DNA of 64,000 nt from Bacteroidia bacterium (GTDB lineage Bacteria; Bacteroidota; Bacteroidia; Chitinophagales; UBA2359), in contig JAUHXA010000014.1 of the NCBI GenBank assembly GCA_030427245.1, positions 1-64,000 of the forward strand. The letters run 5' to 3'. Below the pieces are notes generated by a model. The model did not search any database and was not told the DNA's origin. It saw only the letters and a program-made list of their open reading frames with translations. This document shows, piece after piece, positions 449 to 62,984 of the stretch. Within the stretch, counting starts at the first letter, position 1. Every line of letters starts with the position of its first letter. The position numbers and the translations under genes were made by a program.

Positions 449-913
449 ATGAAAGTACTATCAAAAGCATATAGTTGTTCGTGTAGTGATTTTGAAGGAG
501 AAGATATTTTTTATGGAGAATCATCAAATAAAGCAAAGGCAAAGGCTTTTGATAGCTGGGATTTTATTCCGTATATCGAAATAAAAGCACGTAGAGCCAA
601 AGACTTAGACCTTATTAAGCCTAACCCTTCTTCGCTACTCAATAATCTGACCGAATCGCAGGTCAAAAAGATGAAGCATATGACTGGGTTAAGTGTTGGT
701 AGAAATCAGTATAGAAATTATTATACTTCTTGTAGCCCTGTTGAAGATTTAGAGATGCTGATTCCTATGGGTTTAGCAGGCAGATTCAATAAGTTCGATA
801 GCATTGTATATTACCTAACAGATAAAGGATTAGAGGTTATTAAATCTACCGTTCCTTTGACCAGAAAAGAAGTAAACAACCAAGCAAATGAATCTATTAA
901 AAAGAAAACATGA
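449..913 (+). CDS. Hypothetical early protein with winged-helix-like C-terminal half
   Basis: 154 residues, no family recognised. Residues about 64-140 (LTESQVKKMKHMTG ... YYLTDKGLEVI) resemble the helix-turn-strand pattern of small winged-helix proteins, which is weak evidence. It overlaps the next gene by 26 bp in another frame, and the overlap holds that gene's AACAACCAAG leader, so the pair is translationally close. It follows the CCTGTCG hairpin after about 50 bp. Confidence 0.7.
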   Translation: MKVLSKAYSCSCSDFEGEDIFYGESSNKAKAKAFDSWDFIPYIEIKARRAKDLDLIKPNPSSLLNNLTESQVKKMKHMTGLSVGRNQYRNYYTSCSPVEDLEMLIPMGLAGRFNKFDSIVYYLTDKGLEVIKSTVPLTRKEVNNQANESIKKKT

Positions 914-1169
914 TGCGATTATAAACGCATTAAAATCTATACCTAATTTAAGAGAAGGCAGGATAAATTTTCCTGTTCTCGCAAGTTATTATCATGATAT
1001 AGTAATTTACAAAAGATTTGTTCTCGCAGTAGAATCAGCAAACAGGAGAAAGCAAATAGAAAGTTTGTCTAAAGAATGGGATTCTTTCATCCAAATGAGA
1101 GACTTGGAGGACTATCCTATGCACCATGAAAGTAGCAATTATGCTTTCTATGATATGCTTTTCAGATAA
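888..1169 (+). CDS. Hypothetical early protein, basic N-terminus
   Basis: 93 residues. The N-terminus is basic and helical (MNLLKRKHDAIINALKS); the rest is unremarkable. ATG 888 lies inside the preceding gene behind AACAACCAAGCAA. The stop is 24 bp before the tRNA-Ala-like element, so the primary transcript probably runs into that RNA. Function unknown. Confidence 0.65.
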   Translation: MNLLKRKHDAIINALKSIPNLREGRINFPVLASYYHDIVIYKRFVLAVESANRRKQIESLSKEWDSFIQMRDLEDYPMHHESSNYAFYDMLFR

Positions 1170-1193: not shown

Positions 1194-1263
1194 GGGGCTA
1201 TTGTACCGAGATAACAAAATTATCAAGGGAATTGGTAATGCGGCTCGAAACCGCATAGCTCCA
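1194..1263 (+). ncRNA. tRNA-Ala-like RNA element, copy A
   Basis: Seen: a 70-nt stretch whose ends pair as a 7-bp acceptor stem, GGGGCTA with TAGCTCC, followed by A73. It has a T-arm of stem TGCGG/CCGCA with loop CTCGAAA, and an AATTGGTAA segment like a D-loop. The acceptor has a G3-U70 wobble, the alanine identity element of tRNA-Ala and tmRNA. The middle is too short (38 nt) and lacks an anticodon arm with a U33 loop; only a GATAA/TTATC mini-hairpin is present. An identical copy sits on the minus strand at 60766-60835, and identity ends exactly at the tRNA-like borders. Inferred: a substrate for RNase P/Z processing or for alanyl-tRNA synthetase, not a decoding tRNA. Confidence 0.7.
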
Positions 1264-1267
1264 CTAA

Positions 1268-1351
1268 AGAATAAAGCACTCTGATAAAAGGCTCTGTGTG
1301 TAGCCGCAAGATAGATGCTTAGTTATCCACACGTTAAAGCGGCTTTATTCT
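1268..1351 (+). ncRNA. Structured RNA with possible pseudoknot next to tRNA-like copy A
   Basis: AGAATAAAGC (1268-1277) pairs perfectly with GCTTTATTCT (1342-1351). Inside, GATAA (1283-1287) pairs with TTATC (1323-1327) and GGCT with AGCC (1290-1305). The GTGTG of that loop (1296-1300) can pair with CACAC (1328-1332), giving an H-type pseudoknot. It starts 4 nt after the tRNA-like element and ends before the small gene at 1374. A different but equally long hairpin follows the other copy. Confidence 0.5.
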
Positions 1352-1373: not shown

Positions 1374-1526
1374 ATGAATAGAGCACAAAGATTTCTGATA
1401 GAAAACAATCAAGCAGATATTGTCTTAAATTCAGATAAATATCCCGATAACACCTCTCAAAATGCAGAAAAATGGATTTACTTGTCTGATTTAATGATGG
1501 TATTCTTGAAAGGAGAAACTCAATAA
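1374..1526 (+). CDS. Small hypothetical protein (50 aa)
   Basis: ATG 1374 to TAA 1524-1526, preceded by the repeat ATCAAATCAAATCAA, typical of the A-rich leaders here. The sequence (MNRAQRFLIENNQADIVLNS ...) is well balanced in composition and fills the gap between the structured RNA and the nuclease gene. It resembles small phage or plasmid proteins of unknown role. Confidence 0.55.
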   Translation: MNRAQRFLIENNQADIVLNSDKYPDNTSQNAEKWIYLSDLMMVFLKGETQ

Positions 1527-2453: not shown

Positions 2454-2482
2454 CACGTATATTATGCCAAAGAAATCAGCAA
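2454..2482 (+). promoter_or_regulatory. CACGTATA / ATCAGCAA element 2
   Basis: CACGTATA 2454-2461 ends 2 bp before the ATG at 2464. ATCAGCAA 2475-2482 falls in codons 4-7 of the first methyltransferase. Confidence 0.75.
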
Positions 2483-3930
2483 AAAAAGCTGTTACACCAG
2501 ACACGAAGATGTTGGTGGACAGAATCCTATATTCCAAAAAATCCAAGTGGCGCACCTTCAAATGGCTGCAAAACGGAAACCTCAAACAACTGGATGAAGA
2601 CAAAACCCAACGACTTATCAATTCCCTTTCTATCCAAGATTTTGTTGCACCATTCTATGTTTGGTTTGAAGAAAAAACAGGCACTACTTGGATACTGGAT
2701 GGTTGTCACAGAGAAAAAATACTACACTTAGCCGAACTTCAAGGCAAATTCACAGCTCCTGACGAACTCACCGCTATTTACATTGATTGTAAAAGCAGAA
2801 AAGAAGCCGCCGAACTGGTGCTGGTCTATTCTGCTGTCTACGCTCAGACCACGAAGCAGGGGCTGTTTGAATTTGCTGCCGAAAACGCCATTGACATCAC
2901 AGCCATTGAAAGCATTGCCGCTATTCCGATGATTGAAGCTGCCGAATTTGAAGAAGAGCATCCAGATGCTGCGGGCCTAAATTCAGAGGAACAGGAGAAG
3001 GAATTTGATGTGGAGGTACCCGAAGACCCTTTCACACAGATGGGCGACTTGTATGAGATTCATTCTTTGGAGAAAAACTTAGTACATAGAATCCTTTGTG
3101 GCGATTGTTTGGACACCAATCAACTTACCAAACTCATGAACAAAGAGGAGGCTTCTATGATATTCGTAGACCCTCCATACAATGTGAGCATCAAAAAGGA
3201 CATTGGAAGCGGAAGCTCCCCAGAAGGCATTCAAAAGCACGATGAGTTTGCAATGGCGAGTGGTGAGATGAGTATTACCGAGTTTCAGCAATTCCTGTAC
3301 AGTGTCTTTAGAAATCTGGCGGCTTTCTCTACGAATGGGAGCATCCATTATGCGTGTATGGACTGGAAGCATGTCTATGAAATAATCACTGCAGGACAGC
3401 GAGCCTACACCGAACTAAAAAACATCTGCGTGTGGGCAAAAAACAACGGAGGCATGGGGACTTTTTATCGCTCTCAACACGAGTTGATATTTGTCTTCAA
3501 AAATGGTCAAGGCAAACACATCAATAACTTCAAACTTGGACAAACAGGAAGGTACCGCACTAATATTTGGGAGTATCCGATTATGACCAGTTTTGGCAGA
3601 AAGAAAACCGAATCAGTGAGCGGGAAGGAATCAAAGCTCCACCCTACACCCAAACCTGTGGCAATGGTGTACGACTGTTGTTTGGACTGCTCTCACGAGA
3701 AGGACATCGTGATGGATACTTTTCTTGGAAGTGGGACAACACTTATCGCTTGCGAACAAGCACTTCGACAATGCAGGGCCACCGAAATCGCTCCAAAGTA
3801 TGTAGACGTATCCGTAGCAAGATACATGTCCTATCAAATCCAACAATCAAAGAAATATAAAGTCCTTCGCAATGGTGTAGAACTCACTGATGAGGAAATG
3901 AATGGGTTGCTCAATATAATCAGAGGGTAA
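2464..3930 (+). CDS. ParB-like domain / DNA methyltransferase fusion 1 (DPPY type)
   Basis: 488 residues. Residues about 15-150 form a ParB/Srx-like domain with the signature WILDGCHREKIL. A linker of about 60 acidic residues follows. The rest is a beta-class methyltransferase: motif IV DPPYNV at about 235, and motif I as FLGSGTTLIACE near residue 421. DPPY usually marks N6-adenine transfer. The ParB half is nearly the same as in the next gene, while the catalytic halves have diverged. First gene of a three-gene methylase operon; it ends 1 bp before the next ATG. Likely role: self-modification of phage DNA against host restriction. Target sequence unknown. Confidence 0.85.
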   Translation: MPKKSAKKAVTPDTKMLVDRILYSKKSKWRTFKWLQNGNLKQLDEDKTQRLINSLSIQDFVAPFYVWFEEKTGTTWILDGCHREKILHLAELQGKFTAPDELTAIYIDCKSRKEAAELVLVYSAVYAQTTKQGLFEFAAENAIDITAIESIAAIPMIEAAEFEEEHPDAAGLNSEEQEKEFDVEVPEDPFTQMGDLYEIHSLEKNLVHRILCGDCLDTNQLTKLMNKEEASMIFVDPPYNVSIKKDIGSGSSPEGIQKHDEFAMASGEMSITEFQQFLYSVFRNLAAFSTNGSIHYACMDWKHVYEIITAGQRAYTELKNICVWAKNNGGMGTFYRSQHELIFVFKNGQGKHINNFKLGQTGRYRTNIWEYPIMTSFGRKKTESVSGKESKLHPTPKPVAMVYDCCLDCSHEKDIVMDTFLGSGTTLIACEQALRQCRATEIAPKYVDVSVARYMSYQIQQSKKYKVLRNGVELTDEEMNGLLNIIRG

Positions 3931-3931
3931 A

Positions 3932-5311
3932 ATGACAGGCAAAATATTAGTGGACAGAATCTTGTATTCAAAAAAAGCCAAGTGGAGGAAATTTAAATGG
4001 CTTCAAAATGGCAACTTGAAAGAATTATCTGATGAAAGGACTACTCAGCTAATCGCTTCTATGAATCAACAGGATTTTGTAGCGCCTTTTTATGTGTGGC
4101 TCGAAAAACCAACAGGGATTACATGGATTTTAGACGGCTGCCATAGGGAGAAGATATTGCACCTGGCAGAATCCAAAGAGGTGTTTACTGCTCCTGATGA
4201 ATTGACAGCTATTTATATTGACTGCAAAAGTAAAAAGGAAGCTGCCGAATTGGTTTTGATATATTCTTCGGTGTATGCTCAGACTACCAGACAGGGATTA
4301 GAAGATTTTGCTGCAGAAAATGCGATTGATATGACGGCAATAGAGGCCATCGCTCCTATTCCTTTTGTAGAGGTGTTTTTGCTTGACAACGAAGAGGAGA
4401 CCGAAAAAGAAGTAAAGGAGGATGGTTTTGAAGACAGTAAAACAGCAGAGCACACCCAAGCGATTACCGTCTCAGGAGATATTTATGAAATAAGGAGTGA
4501 AGGCTTGGTGCATCGTCTAATTTGTGGAGATAGCAGGAGCGTGGAGCTTGTCTCTCGATTGATGAATGGGCAAAAGGCTTTCTTATCGTTTACTTCGCCT
4601 CCATACAATGTTGGCGAAAATCCTCGTATGATTCAGCAAGGAAGAGAATCTTTCTATGAAGGGTTTTCTGACAATAAAGACAAGGATGAGTACCTGCATT
4701 TTTTGATTGACTATACCAACAATACGCTAAAGTTCTCCGAATATTCCTTCAATAATATTCAGATGGTAGCAGGCAACAAACTGGCATTGATAGAATATCA
4801 ACATCATTTCAGAAAGCAATTTGTGGATGTGATGGTTTGGGACAAAGGCTCAACACAGCCTGCAATGGCAGAATATGTTTTGAATTCTCGCTTTGAATTT
4901 ATTTTCATCTTCAAAGAAAACTTACTGCCTTCTCGCAGCATCCGGGGGAAATACTTTAGAGGTACGATTCCCAACGTCTACAATGGACCTCAACAATTCG
5001 GAAACAAATTCCATAAAATAAATGCAGCCACCTTTCCTGTTCACTTACCAGCGCATATTTTTGAAAGTTTTGTAGAGCGGGGAAGTGTCGTTTTGGACTT
5101 ATTTATGGGAACAGGAACGTCTATTATTGCGGCTGACCAAATAGGGGTTCATTGTTATGGCTCGGAGTTAAGTCCTTTTTCTTGTGACATAACGATTGCA
5201 AGATACCTCAAGTACAAACGTGAGGAGCTTCATTCCTTCGAGGTATGCAAAAACGGTAAGTTGTTAGGGCTTGAAGAGTTGGATGAGTACATCGAAAACG
5301 TTTTCACATAA
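3932..5311 (+). CDS. ParB-like domain / DNA methyltransferase fusion 2 (TSPPY type)
   Basis: 459 residues. Residues 5-150 repeat the ParB-like domain of the upstream gene almost position by position (ILYSKKAKWRKFKWLQNGNL, WILDGCHREKIL). The catalytic half differs: motif IV is FTSPPYNV, usual for N4-cytosine methyltransferases, and motif I is LFMGTGTSIIA. The shared N-half next to an unlike C-half suggests duplication followed by catalytic-domain replacement or strong divergence. It starts 1 bp after the previous stop. The ParB domain may recruit the enzyme to DNA or act as a nuclease-like module; this is not shown by the sequence. Confidence 0.85.
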   Translation: MTGKILVDRILYSKKAKWRKFKWLQNGNLKELSDERTTQLIASMNQQDFVAPFYVWLEKPTGITWILDGCHREKILHLAESKEVFTAPDELTAIYIDCKSKKEAAELVLIYSSVYAQTTRQGLEDFAAENAIDMTAIEAIAPIPFVEVFLLDNEEETEKEVKEDGFEDSKTAEHTQAITVSGDIYEIRSEGLVHRLICGDSRSVELVSRLMNGQKAFLSFTSPPYNVGENPRMIQQGRESFYEGFSDNKDKDEYLHFLIDYTNNTLKFSEYSFNNIQMVAGNKLALIEYQHHFRKQFVDVMVWDKGSTQPAMAEYVLNSRFEFIFIFKENLLPSRSIRGKYFRGTIPNVYNGPQQFGNKFHKINAATFPVHLPAHIFESFVERGSVVLDLFMGTGTSIIAADQIGVHCYGSELSPFSCDITIARYLKYKREELHSFEVCKNGKLLGLEELDEYIENVFT

Positions 5312-5324
5312 CAATAATATAAAA

Positions 5325-5462
5325 TCATATTTGCTTTTTTGGGTTTTCCTGCTCGTTTGCATCCTCTTTTTTGTCCATCATAGAGCGTAATATCAAAAGG
5401 CTTGTAGTTATGTCTATCACATTAGAAAGTAAATTTAATAGCTCGCTTATTGATTCCAACAT
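5325..5462 (-). CDS. Possible small antisense-strand protein (45 aa)
   Basis: ATG at 5462-5460, TGA at 5327-5325, in the 470-bp gap between methyltransferases 2 and 3. The product (MLESISELLNLLSNVIDITT ...) is amphipathic at the N-terminus and ends in a charged tail (KKEDANEQENPKKQI). It is plausible coding sequence but short, and no clear promoter was placed. Confidence 0.35.
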   Translation of the reverse strand: MLESISELLNLLSNVIDITTSLLILRSMMDKKEDANEQENPKKQI

Positions 5463-5646
5463 GTTGCTGTTTAATTATTTAGTTAAAAGGTTCAAATTGT
5501 CAAAACTTAAATTCAAGTCTTGGTTATTTTAGTTCTTTGGCTAAATTATCGCAAAAAACAAGGCGAGTCGGGGCTAATGATAGACCATAACAATTGTTTT
5601 TGAGACAGCTAATAAATATTAAATCATATTTGCAGTACATTTAAAT

Positions 5647-5677
5647 TTGTTTTGCAAAGTGGAAAGCATTATCTTTG
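5647..5677 (+). promoter_or_regulatory. Bacteroidota-type promoter
   Basis: TTG 5647-5649, a 20-nt spacer, TATCTTTG 5670-5677 (full TAnnTTTG match). Like the promoter at 2262 it lies before a terminator (5727-5765), so its first product would be a transcript of about 80 nt. The sequence AAATCATATTTGC just upstream (5621-5633) also occurs at 5322-5334. Confidence 0.6.
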
Positions 5678-5726
5678 AAGTCCAGACAATTGACATCCTA
5701 AGCTGTTTTTTACGGTTGTCACCACA

Positions 5727-5765
5727 AAAAGGCAGAAGGGTTTTTGCCTTCTGCCTTTTATTTTT
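5727..5765 (+). terminator. Intrinsic terminator before methyltransferase 3
   Basis: AAAAGGCAGAAGG (5727-5739) and CCTTCTGCCTTTT (5747-5759) form a perfect 13-bp stem with a 7-nt loop, followed by ATTTTT. The CACGTATA element follows at once. Confidence 0.85.
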
Positions 5766-5766
5766 A

Positions 5767-5774
5767 CACGTATA
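5767..5774 (+). promoter_or_regulatory. CACGTATA element 3
   Basis: CACGTATA directly after the terminator and 7 bp before the ATG at 5782. No ATCAGCAA half is visible downstream. Confidence 0.65.
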
Positions 5775-5781
5775 TTTTTTG

Positions 5782-7149
5782 ATGAAAAATCCCCCAACAA
5801 TAGATTCATCTGCAACGCCTATGCTTAAAATCCGTATGCTCAAAGAGGAGCATGTAGATTGGCGCACGCTCCACTGGTTGCAATCCGAAAACACCAAAAC
5901 ACAAATTGATATTGAAAAGCTGATTGAGTCCATTGTTCAAAATGGACTTATTAGAGGCTTTAGGGTATGGGAAGACGAAGAAGGTGTGCAGTGGATTTTG
6001 GATGGGCATCACTTAAAAAGAGCTTTAGAGGAAATTGAAAGCAGAGACTTGCTATCTATTCCTGATCAGCTCCCTGCTCATTTTATAGAATGTGAGAACA
6101 AAAAGGAAGCAGCAAAGTTGGTAGTTGTTTTTTCGGCTACTTATGCGAAGTTTTCAGCTACTGGATTGATGGAGCATTTGATGAACTACGAAATAGAAGT
6201 AGCAGATGTAGCTGCGGTTGTTCATCTTGAAGCTTTTGATGTATCAGAAGTAGAAGCTTTGGCGGCTCATGAAGGTCAGTCTTTTGATGAGGTGATTACT
6301 GCAGAAGCTCAAGAAGACGATATGTCACAGTCGGCCATGCCCAAATTTGCTATCACAGTGTTGGGGGACTTGTACGAACTCAAAAGCACCACAAAGGATT
6401 TGATTCATCGGGTGTATTGTGCAGATTCTACGGAGTATGACTCTATTGATAAACTAATGGATGGAGAGTTGGCGGAATTGTTGTTCTCCTCTCCTCCTTA
6501 TAGCAATAGCAAAGATTTTTCGGTAGATGAAATAGCTGATTTTATTACTTCTTTTTTGCCAATAGCGCAGTTTCTGGCTATTCATTTGCCTATCAAGAAG
6601 GATAAAAAAGGGATTGACCCTTATTGGGGTGCATACGTTGATAAGGCGAAGGATTGTAATTATCAGTTGTTGGCATGGAATATCTGGAATAAGGCAGAGC
6701 CTGGAGACGCTTCTGCAAAGAAAGCTATCTTCCCGATTATTCATGATTTTATACTTGTGTTTGGTAAAGAGGCGAAGGAGCTTGTTAAGGTTGGGAAGTT
6801 ATCCGATTCGGTGTTTACCTTACCTTATAAATCTCAAAAGGCTTTTGGTAAAAAGGTTACTGATATTCTGCCTGTCGAATTACCGTATGAGTATATTATT
6901 GCCATGACCAACAAAGGAGATATTGTAGCAGATCCATTTGTCGGGAGCGGCTCTACTATCATTGCTTGCGAACAGGCAGCGAGAGCGTGTTATGCTCAAG
7001 ACATCAACCCAAGTTGCGTTGATATTTCTGTGGCCAGATATATCAAGTTTATGAGGGACGCAAAGGAGGCATTTGAGGTTTGGCGCAATGGAGAGAAGTT
7101 GAAGGATAAGGAACTGGATGATTATGTAGCAAATGCGTTTAGTTCTTAA
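5782..7149 (+). CDS. ParB-like domain / DNA methyltransferase fusion 3 (SSPPY type)
   Basis: 455 residues from ATG 5782. The frame stays open upstream to 5647, but that stretch is a promoter and terminator, so the later start is chosen. It has a ParB-like domain (WRTLHWLQSENTKTQ ... WILDGHHLKRAL), more distant than those of the other two. Then motif IV FSSPPYSNS and motif I FVGSGSTIIACEQAA. SPPY suggests N4-cytosine methylation. Pairs with genes 1 and 2 as a modification cluster but has its own terminator-plus-element start. Confidence 0.85.
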   Translation: MKNPPTIDSSATPMLKIRMLKEEHVDWRTLHWLQSENTKTQIDIEKLIESIVQNGLIRGFRVWEDEEGVQWILDGHHLKRALEEIESRDLLSIPDQLPAHFIECENKKEAAKLVVVFSATYAKFSATGLMEHLMNYEIEVADVAAVVHLEAFDVSEVEALAAHEGQSFDEVITAEAQEDDMSQSAMPKFAITVLGDLYELKSTTKDLIHRVYCADSTEYDSIDKLMDGELAELLFSSPPYSNSKDFSVDEIADFITSFLPIAQFLAIHLPIKKDKKGIDPYWGAYVDKAKDCNYQLLAWNIWNKAEPGDASAKKAIFPIIHDFILVFGKEAKELVKVGKLSDSVFTLPYKSQKAFGKKVTDILPVELPYEYIIAMTNKGDIVADPFVGSGSTIIACEQAARACYAQDINPSCVDISVARYIKFMRDAKEAFEVWRNGEKLKDKELDDYVANAFSS

Positions 7150-56423: not shown

Positions 56424-57572
56424 TTATAGGATTGATTTATTGTGTTTTACTACATCATACTGGTCAGTGTACCTCCACATTATTTCTTTTGACTCCCATC
56501 CACCATTATTCATGATTATTTCAGTTGGAACATTTGCTTCCAACATAGCGACTGCCATTCCAACACGCAGAGAGTGACTACTTTTATCTGCTCCTAAAAA
56601 CTCCTTAACTAATCGTTGCACAGTTTGGGAGCTTATGTGTATTTCAGACTTGTCAAGCCCTTTGTTTCTGATTTTGTAAAATAAACACCCTGACGAGATG
56701 TTGGCTTCTTGAATATACTGACGGAGCGTTGCGATTGGGCAATGGAGAGGGTTTTCGACTGGAAGAATATGCTTTCTGTAGTTATTTCTTGTTTTGTTGT
56801 TTTCTTCGTCCATTTTAATAAATAGAGCATCATTGCTAAATTCCAGTTGCTCAAAACTCATAGATGCCACTTCAGATACTCTGCACATGCCATGAAAACC
56901 AATTAATATTATAGTGCGGTCTCTAAGTGAAGTTAGGCGGATTTTGGCTTGCCGAATTTTGAGGGTTTTAACCAATAACTTCTTTGTAAGAAGGCTATCT
57001 ATCTGTTCGTTTTCCTTCTTGATGATTTTATTTATGGCATCTTCAATATCAATAGACGTTGCTTTCTTGGCTTGCTTAGGGTGTACATGCTTACCCCTCT
57101 TTGCCATGGTTCTTTTTGTTTTTTTTAAATAATCCTTCGTTCTAAAAGTGTATGGAGAAGGGACGGACTCTTGCTTATGTAGCCAAGATACGAACATTAC
57201 TCTACGCTTGATCGTGTTATAACTTGCGCCTTTTTTTACAACTACATTATTTTTGTAAATAGGCTTAATAAACGCCATGTAGGTTATGTACATTACTAAA
57301 GCAGTTTCGGGCATAACAATACGTTCCCCTTTCTTGTTTTGTGCGTACAAATAGAACGATTTACTTTCTTCATCTATATGAACGAAATCACACCCTATCA
57401 TGCTTTCAAAGAAAGCGTTTATACACTTAGCGTCTGACAGTCGAGACAAATAGGTGTTATTACACATTTCTTCTGACTTGATTGTTTGAAGGCTTGAAGG
57501 TATTCTACTGCGTGAGGTCATTTGACTTTGTATAATCTCAAGGGAATCTTCAAAATTTTCGTATGTTGACAT
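56424..57572 (-). CDS. Tyrosine recombinase 1
   Basis: 382 residues. N-terminal core-binding domain with basic KRTMAKRGKHVHPKQAKKA (about 157-175). Catalytic domain: first R in FHGMCRVSEVASM, HSLRVG with H and R of box II, W in NNGGWESKEIM, nucleophile Y in MWRYTDQY. It is a paralogue of the next gene upstream, with the same end (KHNKSIL against KHNKSVL). Both probably act on the phage's own attachment or resolution site. Confidence 0.88.
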   Translation of the reverse strand: MSTYENFEDSLEIIQSQMTSRSRIPSSLQTIKSEEMCNNTYLSRLSDAKCINAFFESMIGCDFVHIDEESKSFYLYAQNKKGERIVMPETALVMYITYMAFIKPIYKNNVVVKKGASYNTIKRRVMFVSWLHKQESVPSPYTFRTKDYLKKTKRTMAKRGKHVHPKQAKKATSIDIEDAINKIIKKENEQIDSLLTKKLLVKTLKIRQAKIRLTSLRDRTIILIGFHGMCRVSEVASMSFEQLEFSNDALFIKMDEENNKTRNNYRKHILPVENPLHCPIATLRQYIQEANISSGCLFYKIRNKGLDKSEIHISSQTVQRLVKEFLGADKSSHSLRVGMAVAMLEANVPTEIIMNNGGWESKEIMWRYTDQYDVVKHNKSIL

Positions 57573-57605
57573 TGAGTTAAATATTGATTTAGGTTAAAAA
57601 ATATC

Positions 57606-58727
57606 CTATAAAACTGATTTATTATGTTTTGCAATATTGTATTGCTTAATGTACCTCCATAGCATCGCCTCTGTTTTCCATCCTCCATTGTTCATTATCA
57701 CCTGAATAGGTATACCTGCCTCATACATGGCGACTGCCATACCAATACGCAGAGAGTGACCGCTTTTGTCCGTACCAATATGCGTTTTTATCAACCGAGC
57801 TACGGTCTTATCGCTTAGATGCTTCCCCGATTTATCCAAGCCTTTATTTCGGATTCGGTAAAACAAATACCCATCTGTAATCCCTGTGACTTTCAAATAT
57901 TGCCTCAGTGCTGCGATAGGACAGTAGAGAGTATTTTCGGCAGCGGGGATGTGTTTTTTGTAATCATACGAAGTCTTGCTGTCCTGGTCAGTCATGTGAA
58001 TAAACAACTGATTGCTGCCAAACTCCAATTGCTCATATTTCAATGCAGCGAGTTCCGCCCTACGAAACATGCCTGTAAATCCTAACAGCAACAAAGTTCT
58101 GTCTCTCAATGCTGTGAGCTTAATTTTATTTCTTCTTATGTCTGCCTTATGTACATTTAATTTATTGATTTGCAAATATCTAAGCTTTATCTTAGCCGAT
58201 TTAATAACATCATCAACGCCTTCCTTTAAGTCAAAAACATTGATTTTTTTGGCTTGATTTGCATGGATATGCTTTCCGTCTCGGCCCATACGCTTTTTAA
58301 CGGCCTTTAGAAATTTTTTAATATTGGAGGTGTAAGGGGAAGGGATATTATTCTCTTTATGTATGTGGCTGATAAAAGCCACTCGGTGAGTAATTGAGGC
58401 GTAACTCATTCCATAACGCAAAACTTCGCCTTTTTGACTAATCACAGGTTTCTTATCCGCTACATAGGCAATGTAGGCTACCAACATTTCTTGACTGATA
58501 CCTTCTGTGATTAAATAAAATTTCTTCTGAACTTCGTCAATATTAATAACGGATTCGTTGGCGACCAATTCAAAAAACTCATTGATGCAATGAGCATCCG
58601 AACGATACGCCTCAAAAGTATTTCTTGGTACCGCATCAATAAGTGCGCCTTCTGAGTAGTCGTATAAGTCGGGTAGTAAATTACTGGCAAGTTTAGAGTT
58701 CTGGTTATTAACCTTTAATTTGTTCAT
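57606..58727 (-). CDS. Tyrosine recombinase 2
   Basis: 373 residues, same architecture: basic KRMGRDGKHIHANQAKK, R in FTGMFRRAELAAL, HSLRIG, NNGGWKTEAM, catalytic Y in LWRYIKQY. First gene of the pair; its ATG lies 3 bp from a 44-bp perfect inverted repeat. Two tandem, similar recombinases suggest a heterodimeric XerC/D-like reaction or a paired-integrase system, not a single integrase. Confidence 0.88.
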   Translation of the reverse strand: MNKLKVNNQNSKLASNLLPDLYDYSEGALIDAVPRNTFEAYRSDAHCINEFFELVANESVINIDEVQKKFYLITEGISQEMLVAYIAYVADKKPVISQKGEVLRYGMSYASITHRVAFISHIHKENNIPSPYTSNIKKFLKAVKKRMGRDGKHIHANQAKKINVFDLKEGVDDVIKSAKIKLRYLQINKLNVHKADIRRNKIKLTALRDRTLLLLGFTGMFRRAELAALKYEQLEFGSNQLFIHMTDQDSKTSYDYKKHIPAAENTLYCPIAALRQYLKVTGITDGYLFYRIRNKGLDKSGKHLSDKTVARLIKTHIGTDKSGHSLRIGMAVAMYEAGIPIQVIMNNGGWKTEAMLWRYIKQYNIAKHNKSVL

Positions 58728-58730
58728 GTT

Positions 58731-58774
58731 GTATATTTATGTCCGACAACTTTAATTGTCGGACATAAATATAC
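58731..58774. promoter_or_regulatory. 44-bp perfect inverted repeat, candidate recombination site
   Basis: GTATATTTATGTCCGACAA (58731-58749), spacer CTTTAA, TTGTCGGACATAAATATAC (58756-58774). Two 19-bp arms around a 6-bp centre match the layout of tyrosine recombinase core sites (inverted arms around a 6-8 bp crossover region). It could also be an operator or RNA hairpin in the recombinase leader. The rest of 58775-58880 has only A-runs and GTGTCACAC. Confidence 0.6.
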
Positions 58775-58880
58775 AAAGAATTTTCGAAGGAGTAAAAAGT
58801 ATTTTAAATGTTTTTTTAGAAAAAAAACGGATGAATGTGTCACACTTTGAGTCTTGAATGGCATTACTATATGAACGGCC

Positions 58881-60242: not shown

Positions 60243-60449
60243 CTAATGACATGCTTCGTTGTCGGAGATGTGGTAACTCTCATAATCGGGATTATGAGTA
60301 AAATAAAGTTCAGATAACATTAATCTTATATTCTCAATATTATGCCATTCCGATGAAAAAGGAGCAAGTTCTCCTTTTTTATCGCTTAGAAATTCTCTGA
60401 ATTTAGTGATAGTAGCTAAATCCTGTCTTGTGAATTTGCTGTTTTTCAT
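60243..60449 (-). CDS. Small hypothetical early protein
   Basis: 68 residues, helical; leader AAACACCCAAGCAA is a variant of the early AACAACCAAG leader. Overlaps the upstream gene's stop by 4 bp. Confidence 0.65.
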   Translation of the reverse strand: MKNSKFTRQDLATITKFREFLSDKKGELAPFSSEWHNIENIRLMLSELYFTHNPDYESYHISDNEACH

Positions 60450-60664
60450 TTGCTTGGGTGTTTATTTTGTTTTCTTTTAATGTTTTGCTTGGCATTCCTT
60501 AGATACAGCTTATATCTCCTATCATTTATAATTTTTTTAACTTCATCATACCTTGCAAGCGTTTCTTCATACAATCCCGATTCGTCACCATCTGCATTTT
60601 GAATAAAGAAATCACGAAAATCAGAAAGCAAGGATGATATTTTACTGATTTCATTTAAGTTCAT
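60446..60664 (-). CDS. Small hypothetical early protein after hairpin copy 2
   Basis: 72 residues (MNLNEISKISSLLSDFRDFF then a basic C-terminus, KQNIKRKQNKHPSK). The ATG directly follows the CCTGTCG hairpin and AATAAACAACCAA. Confidence 0.65.
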   Translation of the reverse strand: MNLNEISKISSLLSDFRDFFIQNADGDESGLYEETLARYDEVKKIINDRRYKLYLRNAKQNIKRKQNKHPSK

Positions 60665-60678
60665 TTGGTTGTTTATTA

Positions 60679-60702
60679 AAACCTGTCGAATTCGACAGGT
60701 TT
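60679..60702 (-). terminator. CCTGTCG hairpin plus U-tract, copy 2
   Basis: AAACCTGTCG, loop AATT, CGACAGGTTT, a perfect 24-bp palindrome. On the minus strand it is followed by T-rich sequence and AATAAACAACCAAATG. It matches copy 1 at 372-396 including the leader. Confidence 0.65.
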
Positions 60703-60711
60703 AGGTTACTT

Positions 60712-60764
60712 AATATTGCCCTCACTTCTGATAAGCCTCATTATCAGGAGTGAAAGCAATAATT
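60712..60764 (-). ncRNA. Long hairpin next to tRNA-like copy B
   Basis: On the minus strand, ATTATTGC ... GCAATAT encloses TCAC/GTGA and TGATAA/TTATCA with loop TGAGGC. It starts 1 nt after the tRNA-like element ends. It is unrelated in sequence to the structure after copy A but in the same position. Confidence 0.5.
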
Positions 60765-60765
60765 G

Positions 60766-60835
60766 TGGAGCTATGCGGTTTCGAGCCGCATTACCAATTC
60801 CCTTGATAATTTTGTTATCTCGGTACAATAGCCCC
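60766..60835 (-). ncRNA. tRNA-Ala-like RNA element, copy B
   Basis: Identical over 70 nt to copy A at 1194-1263 (71 with the next C): acceptor GGGGCTA/TAGCTCC with G3-U70, T-arm TGCGG-CTCGAAA-CCGCA, no anticodon arm. Its 5' end overlaps the end of the 171-residue gene: the last codons (GAIVPR and stop) lie inside the element. Processing at its 5' end would therefore remove that gene's stop codon. Confidence 0.7.
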
Positions 60836-61330
60836 ATGATTTTTTTTAAGTGATAAATATTCATCCCAATCCTCCGCCCTTATATTCTTCTCCAGAAACT
60901 CATCCATGCCCATATCACGACACTCGTTTACAAATCTCATAAACCCAACCACTCCCCTACACTCCTCCAATCCATCTCTTCTAAATTTGGACTTCATAGG
61001 TTCATCAAGTGATGCAATCCAATCATCAAATTCTTCTGGAGTAGCATCCTCTCCTTCTGGTTGGTCATAGTATCGCTTACACCAATATCCAAAGCGAAAA
61101 ATATAATCTTCCCATAAGGGGATTATGGATACCGAATGAGCCTTTTTCAGCAAAGCATCATCCGCAGACGTGTAATAGTCTTTTTCGGCTCCTGCAATCT
61201 TCATTTCAATGCGATATTCAACCGCCTCCGCAGGCTTGCCGAGTTCTTGCAGCTTCGATTTAATCGCTGCTTTACGGTAAGCAAGAGATTGGTTTTTGAA
61301 TTGGATAGGGTGTATTTCTGGTATCTTCAT
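60815..61330 (-). CDS. Hypothetical protein ending inside tRNA-like element
   Basis: 171 residues, acidic and helical (YCKRYYDQPEGEDATPEEFDDWI). No family recognised. The last six codons are part of the tRNA-Ala-like element. Its start overlaps the upstream gene's stop by 4 bp (61327-61330). Confidence 0.7.
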   Translation of the reverse strand: MKIPEIHPIQFKNQSLAYRKAAIKSKLQELGKPAEAVEYRIEMKIAGAEKDYYTSADDALLKKAHSVSIIPLWEDYIFRFGYWCKRYYDQPEGEDATPEEFDDWIASLDEPMKSKFRRDGLEECRGVVGFMRFVNECRDMGMDEFLEKNIRAEDWDEYLSLKKNHGAIVPR

Positions 61331-62334: not shown

Positions 62335-62454
62335 TTATTTAAACACTACTTTGGATTCGTAATCCAGTCCTCTTTCATTATACCCCCTTTCGTAGATTAC
62401 GCCTGATTTACAAACAAGCGTAAGGCAATATCCGTCAGAAGATATGTTAAGCAT
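62335..62454 (-). CDS. Small hypothetical protein (39 aa)
   Basis: ATG 62454-62452 to TAA 62337-62335. The product (MLNISSDGYCLTLVCKSGVI then YERGYNERGLDYES) is protein-like and fills the gap between two genes of the operon. The hairpin AGCATTT/AAATGCT overlaps its start. Confidence 0.5.
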   Translation of the reverse strand: MLNISSDGYCLTLVCKSGVIYERGYNERGLDYESKVVFK

Positions 62455-62492
62455 TTCTAAAATGCTACGCAAATATTTTTTTATAAAAACGC

Positions 62493-62984
62493 TTAAAAAG
62501 ATAATTTATTTTTGATAGCAGTTAGTTTGCTTCTCGTAACCTCCACTTCGTCAGTGCTTGACAGTCCTTTCTGCATAAGCGTTTCCCAAAGCATTAGCTG
62601 TGTATCAATCCCATCCAAAAGCGTTTGTTGGTTGTCTTGGGTGAGTGTGACAGACTTTGAAGCTTTGCCTGTTACTAGTATGGTCATTTCTCCGCTTTCA
62701 ATCTCCACGTTTGCAGCAGATGCTTCTTTCAATAATTCCTGCGCTGCATCCATGATGGCTTGCTGTTCTTGATGACTCAGTGTGCCAAGGCTAATCTTTG
62801 AACTCAACCCTGTACGTTTGGCGGTGCGAGTTTTGTTGGTGTTCCCCGCATGAGGAATGAGGTGTTTTCGCTCAACAAGCAAATCATACGCTCGACACAA
62901 CAAAGTCGTTTTGTTGAGAATCTTTTTTTCGTCACATATAGTCTTCAAAAACTGATATGCGTCTTGTGGTTTAGGCTGCTTCAT
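62493..62984 (-). CDS. Hypothetical helical protein next to Csf3-like gene
   Basis: 163 residues from ATG 62984 (MKQPKPQDAYQFLKTICDEK), which overlaps the Csf3-like stop region by 14 bp; the longer frame to 63173 lies within that gene. Basic middle (KTRTAKRTGLSSK), helical C-terminal half. A small-subunit-like role beside a RAMP protein is possible but not shown. Confidence 0.65.
   Translation of the reverse strand: MKQPKPQDAYQFLKTICDEKKILNKTTLLCRAYDLLVERKHLIPHAGNTNKTRTAKRTGLSSKISLGTLSHQEQQAIMDAAQELLKEASAANVEIESGEMTILVTGKASKSVTLTQDNQQTLLDGIDTQLMLWETLMQKGLSSTDEVEVTRSKLTAIKNKLSF

Follow-up and report, generated by a model that had tools for sequence, protein, structure and literature searches.

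A tRNA-Ala-like element in two identical intergenic copies on a probable phage-plasmid contig: a candidate site of RNase P-type mRNA processing

RESULTS

Gene arms and repeats of the contig

The window analyzed here (64,000 nucleotides) is the first 64 kb of a 107,784-bp contig (C70) within a 7.58-Mb bacterial genome. This contig carries terminase, tape measure, and two tyrosine recombinase genes, as well as a Rep3/RepM-RepE-like plasmid initiator (L011:10244-11680). Given the combination of phage genes (terminase, tape measure) with a Rep3-type initiator, it is probably a phage-plasmid. Searches with the terminase, recombinase, RecA-like, 171-aa, and 329-aa proteins revealed no close relative of the phage. 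Its genes form two arms that diverge near 87-88 kb of the contig. Elsewhere in the window, three genes in a row (2464-7149) all match DNA methyltransferase family phrog_498, and parts of the first two are 70% alike at the DNA level. In addition, the phage encodes a lone RAMP/Cas7-like protein (L010:9220-10629), whose similarity to Csf2 and Csm3 lies under the curated cut-offs.

Each arm hosts one copy of a short tRNA-like element (Table 1). The initial annotation described it as a 70-nt RNA in two identical inverted copies; identity and inverted orientation hold, and direct reading extends the shared span to 71 nt. Both copies are intergenic and in the sense orientation, copy A in the rightward arm and copy B in the leftward arm. 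In both cases, a predicted hairpin domain follows, after 4 nt for copy A and after 3 nt for copy B, and the next ATG lies 100-110 nt 3' of the element. As noted earlier, the gene preceding copy B, which encodes 171 aa, has its stop codon (TAA, 60817-60815) inside the element. The proposed location within an early transcript would follow from gene order only.

Table 1. Coordinates of the tRNA-like element, its parts, and its surroundings
Feature	Position	Strand	Remarks
tRNA-like element, copy A	1194..1264	+	letter-identical to copy B over 71 nt
tRNA-like element, copy B	60765..60835	-	holds the stop codon of the upstream 171-aa gene
Acceptor 5' strand GGGGCTA, copy A	1194..1200	+	pairs with 1256-1262; direct reading
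Acceptor 3' strand TAGCTCC, copy A	1256..1262	+	T at tRNA position 70 opposite G3
7-8 bp hairpin, loop GGGAA, copy A	1219..1239	+	stands where D and anticodon arms would be
T-arm TGCGG-CTCGAAA-CCGCA, copy A	1239..1255	+	T-loop 1244-1250
93-aa ORF upstream of copy A	888..1169	+	stop 24 nt before element; no family match
Structured domain behind copy A	1269..1350	+	folding prediction: stem GAATAAAGC/GCTTTATTC, possible GTGTG/CACAC pseudoknot; no Rfam match
50-aa ORF, next frame 3' of copy A	1374..1526	+	
171-aa ORF upstream of copy B	60815..61330	-	last codons and stop within element; no family match
48-nt hairpin behind copy B	60714..60761	-	CACT(C)CTGATAA..GGCT at same offset as in the domain of copy A
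72-aa ORF, next gene 3' of copy B	60446..60664	-	
Two tandem XerC-like tyrosine recombinase genes	56424-58727		2 kb from copy B
48-bp near-perfect palindrome	58729-58776		directly before recombinase genes; likely recombination site or operator
Dispersed intergenic repeats	370-409, 60665-60704, 62446-62530; C70 near 66.2, 69.2, 74.9, 81.2, 96.1, 99.3, 101.0, 104.2 kb		
F1 repeats, inter-arm	C70 near 81.2/96.1/99.3/101.0 kb		sense in both arms
F3 repeats, inter-arm	370-409/60665-60704		hairpin plus AAACAACCAA leader; sense in both arms
F4 repeats, inter-arm	C70 near 74.9/104.2 kb		sense in both arms

The contig also hosts other dispersed intergenic repeats. Families F1, F2, and F4 are promoter-like, with TAnnTTTG boxes, which are typical of Bacteroidota promoters. 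A TAnnTTTG-like box also lies just 5' of a candidate small RNA (2290-2445) that contains two hairpins, of which the second is long and precedes a run of nine T. The copies of these other families are ~80-97.5% identical, whereas the tRNA-like element alone is 100% identical, which would fit either tighter constraint or more recent copying. We attribute the inverted position of copies A and B to the divergent transcription of the arms, as with the other inter-arm repeats; being inverted does not in itself point to an inversion device.

A tRNA-Ala top half within the repeat borders

All of the alanine-type features claimed for the element were present on direct reading: the acceptor GGGGCTA/TAGCTCC with its G3-U70 pair, and the T-arm. 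Together with A73, the acceptor forms a top half in which it is stacked directly on the 5-bp T-stem with loop CTCGAAA, and so the element shares with tRNAs a 7-bp acceptor and a T-arm bearing a TTCRA-type loop. Between the acceptor and the T-arm lie 38 nt with a hairpin at element positions 26-33/39-46. Direct reading of the element revealed neither a D-arm nor a usable anticodon, and CCA is not encoded. The earlier view that a proper anticodon arm is lacking is borne out, since ARAGORN makes no call and the sole 5+7 anticodon-arm reading has G at position 33 instead of U33. The stretch AATTGGTAA, by contrast, had been called D-loop-like but does not occupy the site of a D-loop; it adjoins the T-stem and forms the 3' side of the 7-8 bp hairpin.

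To estimate chance occurrence, 2x10^7 random 71-mers were drawn at contig base composition, and 3 of them showed the stems and T-loop consensus at fixed borders (~1e-7); with the stems alone and the T-loop ignored, the chance was 1.3e-5. A scan of the whole contig with free spacing uncovered the same architecture at copies A and B only, against an expectation of 0.65 places per randomized contig. The observation as such is a real, non-random tRNA-Ala-like element.

Folding of the element alone gave an RNAfold z-score of -3.1 relative to shuffled sequences, and of about -1.4 to -1.5 when ~20-nt flanks were included. Two folds are nearly equal in energy, one tRNA-like (-21.0 kcal/mol) and one rod-like without the T-arm (-21.5 kcal/mol; ~0.4 of the ensemble), and the acceptor helix occurs in both. 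With 100 nt of context per side, pairing within the acceptor helix amounts to 0.76-0.98 for both copies. For copy A in context, acceptor pair probabilities are 0.83-0.98, and four of the five T-stem pairs reach ~0.55-0.6.

Flanks of the two copies and alternative origins

Identity between the copies starts at acceptor base 1 and stops one base past the discriminator A. It had been claimed that identity ends at the tRNA-like borders and that the flanks differ. This is correct upstream, where the flanks of A and B are unrelated (banded P 0.35). Downstream they have mostly diverged, yet CACT(C)CTGATAA..GGCT is common to both at equal offset; the banded P for this likeness is 0.003-0.006, a post hoc value for a comparison chosen after inspection, and it becomes 0.10 when the offset is left unfixed. 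Beyond copies A and B, the 71-nt sequence occurs nowhere else in the whole 7.58-Mb genome.

The copies may also be a recently copied, functionless tRNA-derived relic or small repeat, that is, a degenerate phage tRNA-Ala gene that recombined into the second arm. Phages do have atypical, short tRNA-Ala genes with the same acceptor (L036, L038, L039), dispersed intergenic repeats are abundant on the contig, and no homologue indicates upkeep of the element. However, a relic in decay should not retain fully paired acceptor and T-stems together with a sound T-loop, the downstream likeness at a fixed offset suggests an older duplication whose identity has persisted over the 71 nt only, and inspection showed no target-site duplication. 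We regard this origin as possible but unlikely.

Because two XerC-like recombinases are encoded 2 kb from copy B and the copies are inverted, the element might instead serve these adjacent enzymes as a recombination site, inverting the 59.5-kb segment between the copies or acting as an attachment site. tRNA T-arms commonly serve as attachment sites. A tyrosine recombinase site would be expected beside the recombinase genes, with arms around a core of 6-8 bp; 6-bp arms do flank the T-loop of the element, but what adjoins the recombinase genes is a palindrome. Against such a role, which we deem very unlikely, the recombinase operon has a 48-bp palindrome of its own, the other inter-arm repeats are inverted too owing to arm divergence, and neither the 5' acceptor strand nor the ends at tRNA borders would be explained. 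No host tRNA 3' end matching the element was found in the assembly, in which the host UGC tRNA-Ala itself was not found.

The shared sequence could also be part of a small overlapping protein, since each copy is traversed by a 52-aa ORF in one common frame (GLLYRDNKIIKGIGNAARNRIAP), open in both and with an upstream ATG, and the shared part has a codon usage that falls between those of coding and non-coding sequence. Beyond the 71 nt, however, the two peptides show no relation, codon scores over the entire ORFs lie close to zero, between the means of coding and of non-coding sequence, neither Pfam nor the genomes gave a match, and an open frame of 23 codons is often expected. A coding element was rejected on these grounds (neutral codon scores, no Pfam or genome match, unrelated flanking peptides), and a small protein appears extremely improbable.

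Comparison with known RNA classes and search for homologues

The element belongs to none of the Rfam families tested. An ordinary tRNA was rejected, with no ARAGORN call and no match to the Rfam tRNA model at E up to 10. A tmRNA was rejected too: there was no gathering-level covariance match, and a weak partial match to permuted tmRNA scored 14.5 bits against a cut-off of 47. The tRNA-like domain of tmRNA resembles the element in its alanine acceptor and T-arm and in the absence of an anticodon arm, but the element is too short and has no mRNA-like domain, and a separate tmRNA is encoded by the host (L013). An antisense role like that of C4, for which complementarity to the start of a phage mRNA would be expected, was also rejected, as the longest complementary seeds are 12 nt and the best duplexes equal those of shuffled controls. 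Unlike the F1, F2, and F4 repeats, neither the element nor the flanks scanned contain a TAnnTTTG box, and it was rejected as a promoter repeat.

Related sequences were sought at several levels. No homologue was detected by blastn against INPHARED and PLSDB, by exact and degenerate patterns in IMG/VR, by patterns in GTDB contigs, or by blastn in 100 related genomes. The pattern matches in IMG/VR and GTDB proved to be true tRNA-Ala genes, unrelated T-arm/acceptor look-alikes, or chance occurrences. A single-sequence covariance model run on 299 related genomes returned matches at E 0.005-0.5 per genome, which are ordinary tRNAs or chance; one look-alike (L042) was dismissed as chance at such an E-value over 299 genomes, and by eye it may lie in another open frame.

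A putative processing element in two operons

We postulate that the element acts as a tRNA-like mark for RNase P-type processing, placed between cistrons of two polycistronic mRNAs, one per divergent arm, and assign this reading a probability of about 0.4. It ranks first because the element is in sense, lies between genes of two operons, and has a hairpin behind it, which is the expected look of a processing mark. It is also favored by the top half at the exact repeat borders (~1e-7), its uniqueness in the contig, and a fold better than that of shuffled sequences, as well as by the acceptor helix that stays paired in context, the missing promoter box, and inter-arm repeats that follow the direction of transcription. 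The processing reading is weakened in that the databases searched yielded no homologue and the identical copies could be recent duplicates. The rod-like fold of equal energy, the lack of an encoded CCA, which RNase P prefers, and the drop in z-score with flanks likewise speak against it.

Model RNAs consisting of an acceptor stem, T-stem, and T-loop are cut by RNase P, and among the substrates other than tRNA that it has in nature are polycistronic mRNAs and the phage RNAs M3 and C4 (reviewed in PMC11143913, PMC4919922). By analogy, the host RNase P would probably cut at the 5' end of the element, before G1, and the 3' end may be set by 3' tRNA maturation enzymes or by the following hairpin. 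Such cutting would separate the part of each mRNA upstream of the element from the part downstream, each with its own fate, and may release a small, stable tRNA-like RNA. The initial annotation further held that cutting would create a non-stop mRNA; this would apply to copy B, whose stop lies 18 nt past the predicted cut, but not to copy A, where the gene ends 24 nt earlier. Since the gene upstream of copy A would keep its stop codon, a non-stop mRNA is not common to both copies.

The RNA-level role proposed at the outset is in keeping with the non-chance top half, the border-matched identity, and the sense intergenic siting, and its RNase P/Z part is predicted from known substrate rules. We infer that the element may be kept by selection, acting on the RNA. 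No evidence emerged for the suggested use as a decoy or as a replication signal.

The element shows the acceptor/T-stem minihelix and the position between genes that mark RNase P-processed mRNA elements, its transcription and cleavage being predicted. If it functions, it would do so in the manner of established tRNA-like substrates of RNase P. The C4 antisense RNA of P1 and P7, which are phage-plasmids as the present contig probably is, and the phage M3 RNA are similar in being phage non-coding RNAs that look tRNA-like to the host RNase P. In contrast to these, the element yielded no antisense target and no Rfam C4 match, which led us to reject it as a C4 RNA, but has an explicit tRNA-Ala acceptor and T-loop and occurs in two copies. 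With mascRNA/menRNA, mitochondrial t-elements, and RNase P sites in E. coli polycistronic mRNAs, it shares a tRNA top half and a degenerate bottom inside a longer transcript, whereas it differs in being of phage origin and intercistronic, with one copy per arm and with cleavage that is predicted only. If RNase P does cut here, this would amount to tRNA punctuation of phage operons by a purpose-built tRNA mimic.

Possible action in trans

Alternatively, the released RNA could gain CCA and be alanylated via G3-U70, acting in trans as a decoy or aminoacyl donor toward AlaRS, EF-Tu, or a tRNA-targeting defence. AlaRS charges minihelices, and the element offers an acceptor/T minihelix with G3-U70 and A73; two identical copies would increase dosage. 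AlaRSs depend mainly on G3-U70 (PMC6451123). Nevertheless, no D-loop GG is placed for the elbow targeted by the C-Ala domain, CCA is lacking, and a decoy would not need siting within operons, which makes action in trans improbable. We are equally doubtful of a combined scheme in which a dedicated phage tRNA-Ala mimic in both arms recruits host RNase P, CCA enzyme, AlaRS, or EF-Tu, cuts phage mRNAs, and frees a non-decoding, alanylatable RNA. If the element were charged with alanine as well as cut, it would be a bacterial-virus counterpart to the tRNA-like structures of plant viruses.

The phage tRNA-Ala genes mentioned above (L036, L038, L039), of ~70 nt and with the same GGGGCTA/TAGCTCC acceptor, differ from the element in having a UGC anticodon and being called by ARAGORN. 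In the same genome, contig C35 carries an array of 16 tRNA genes (L018) that resembles a phage/plasmid tRNA cluster.
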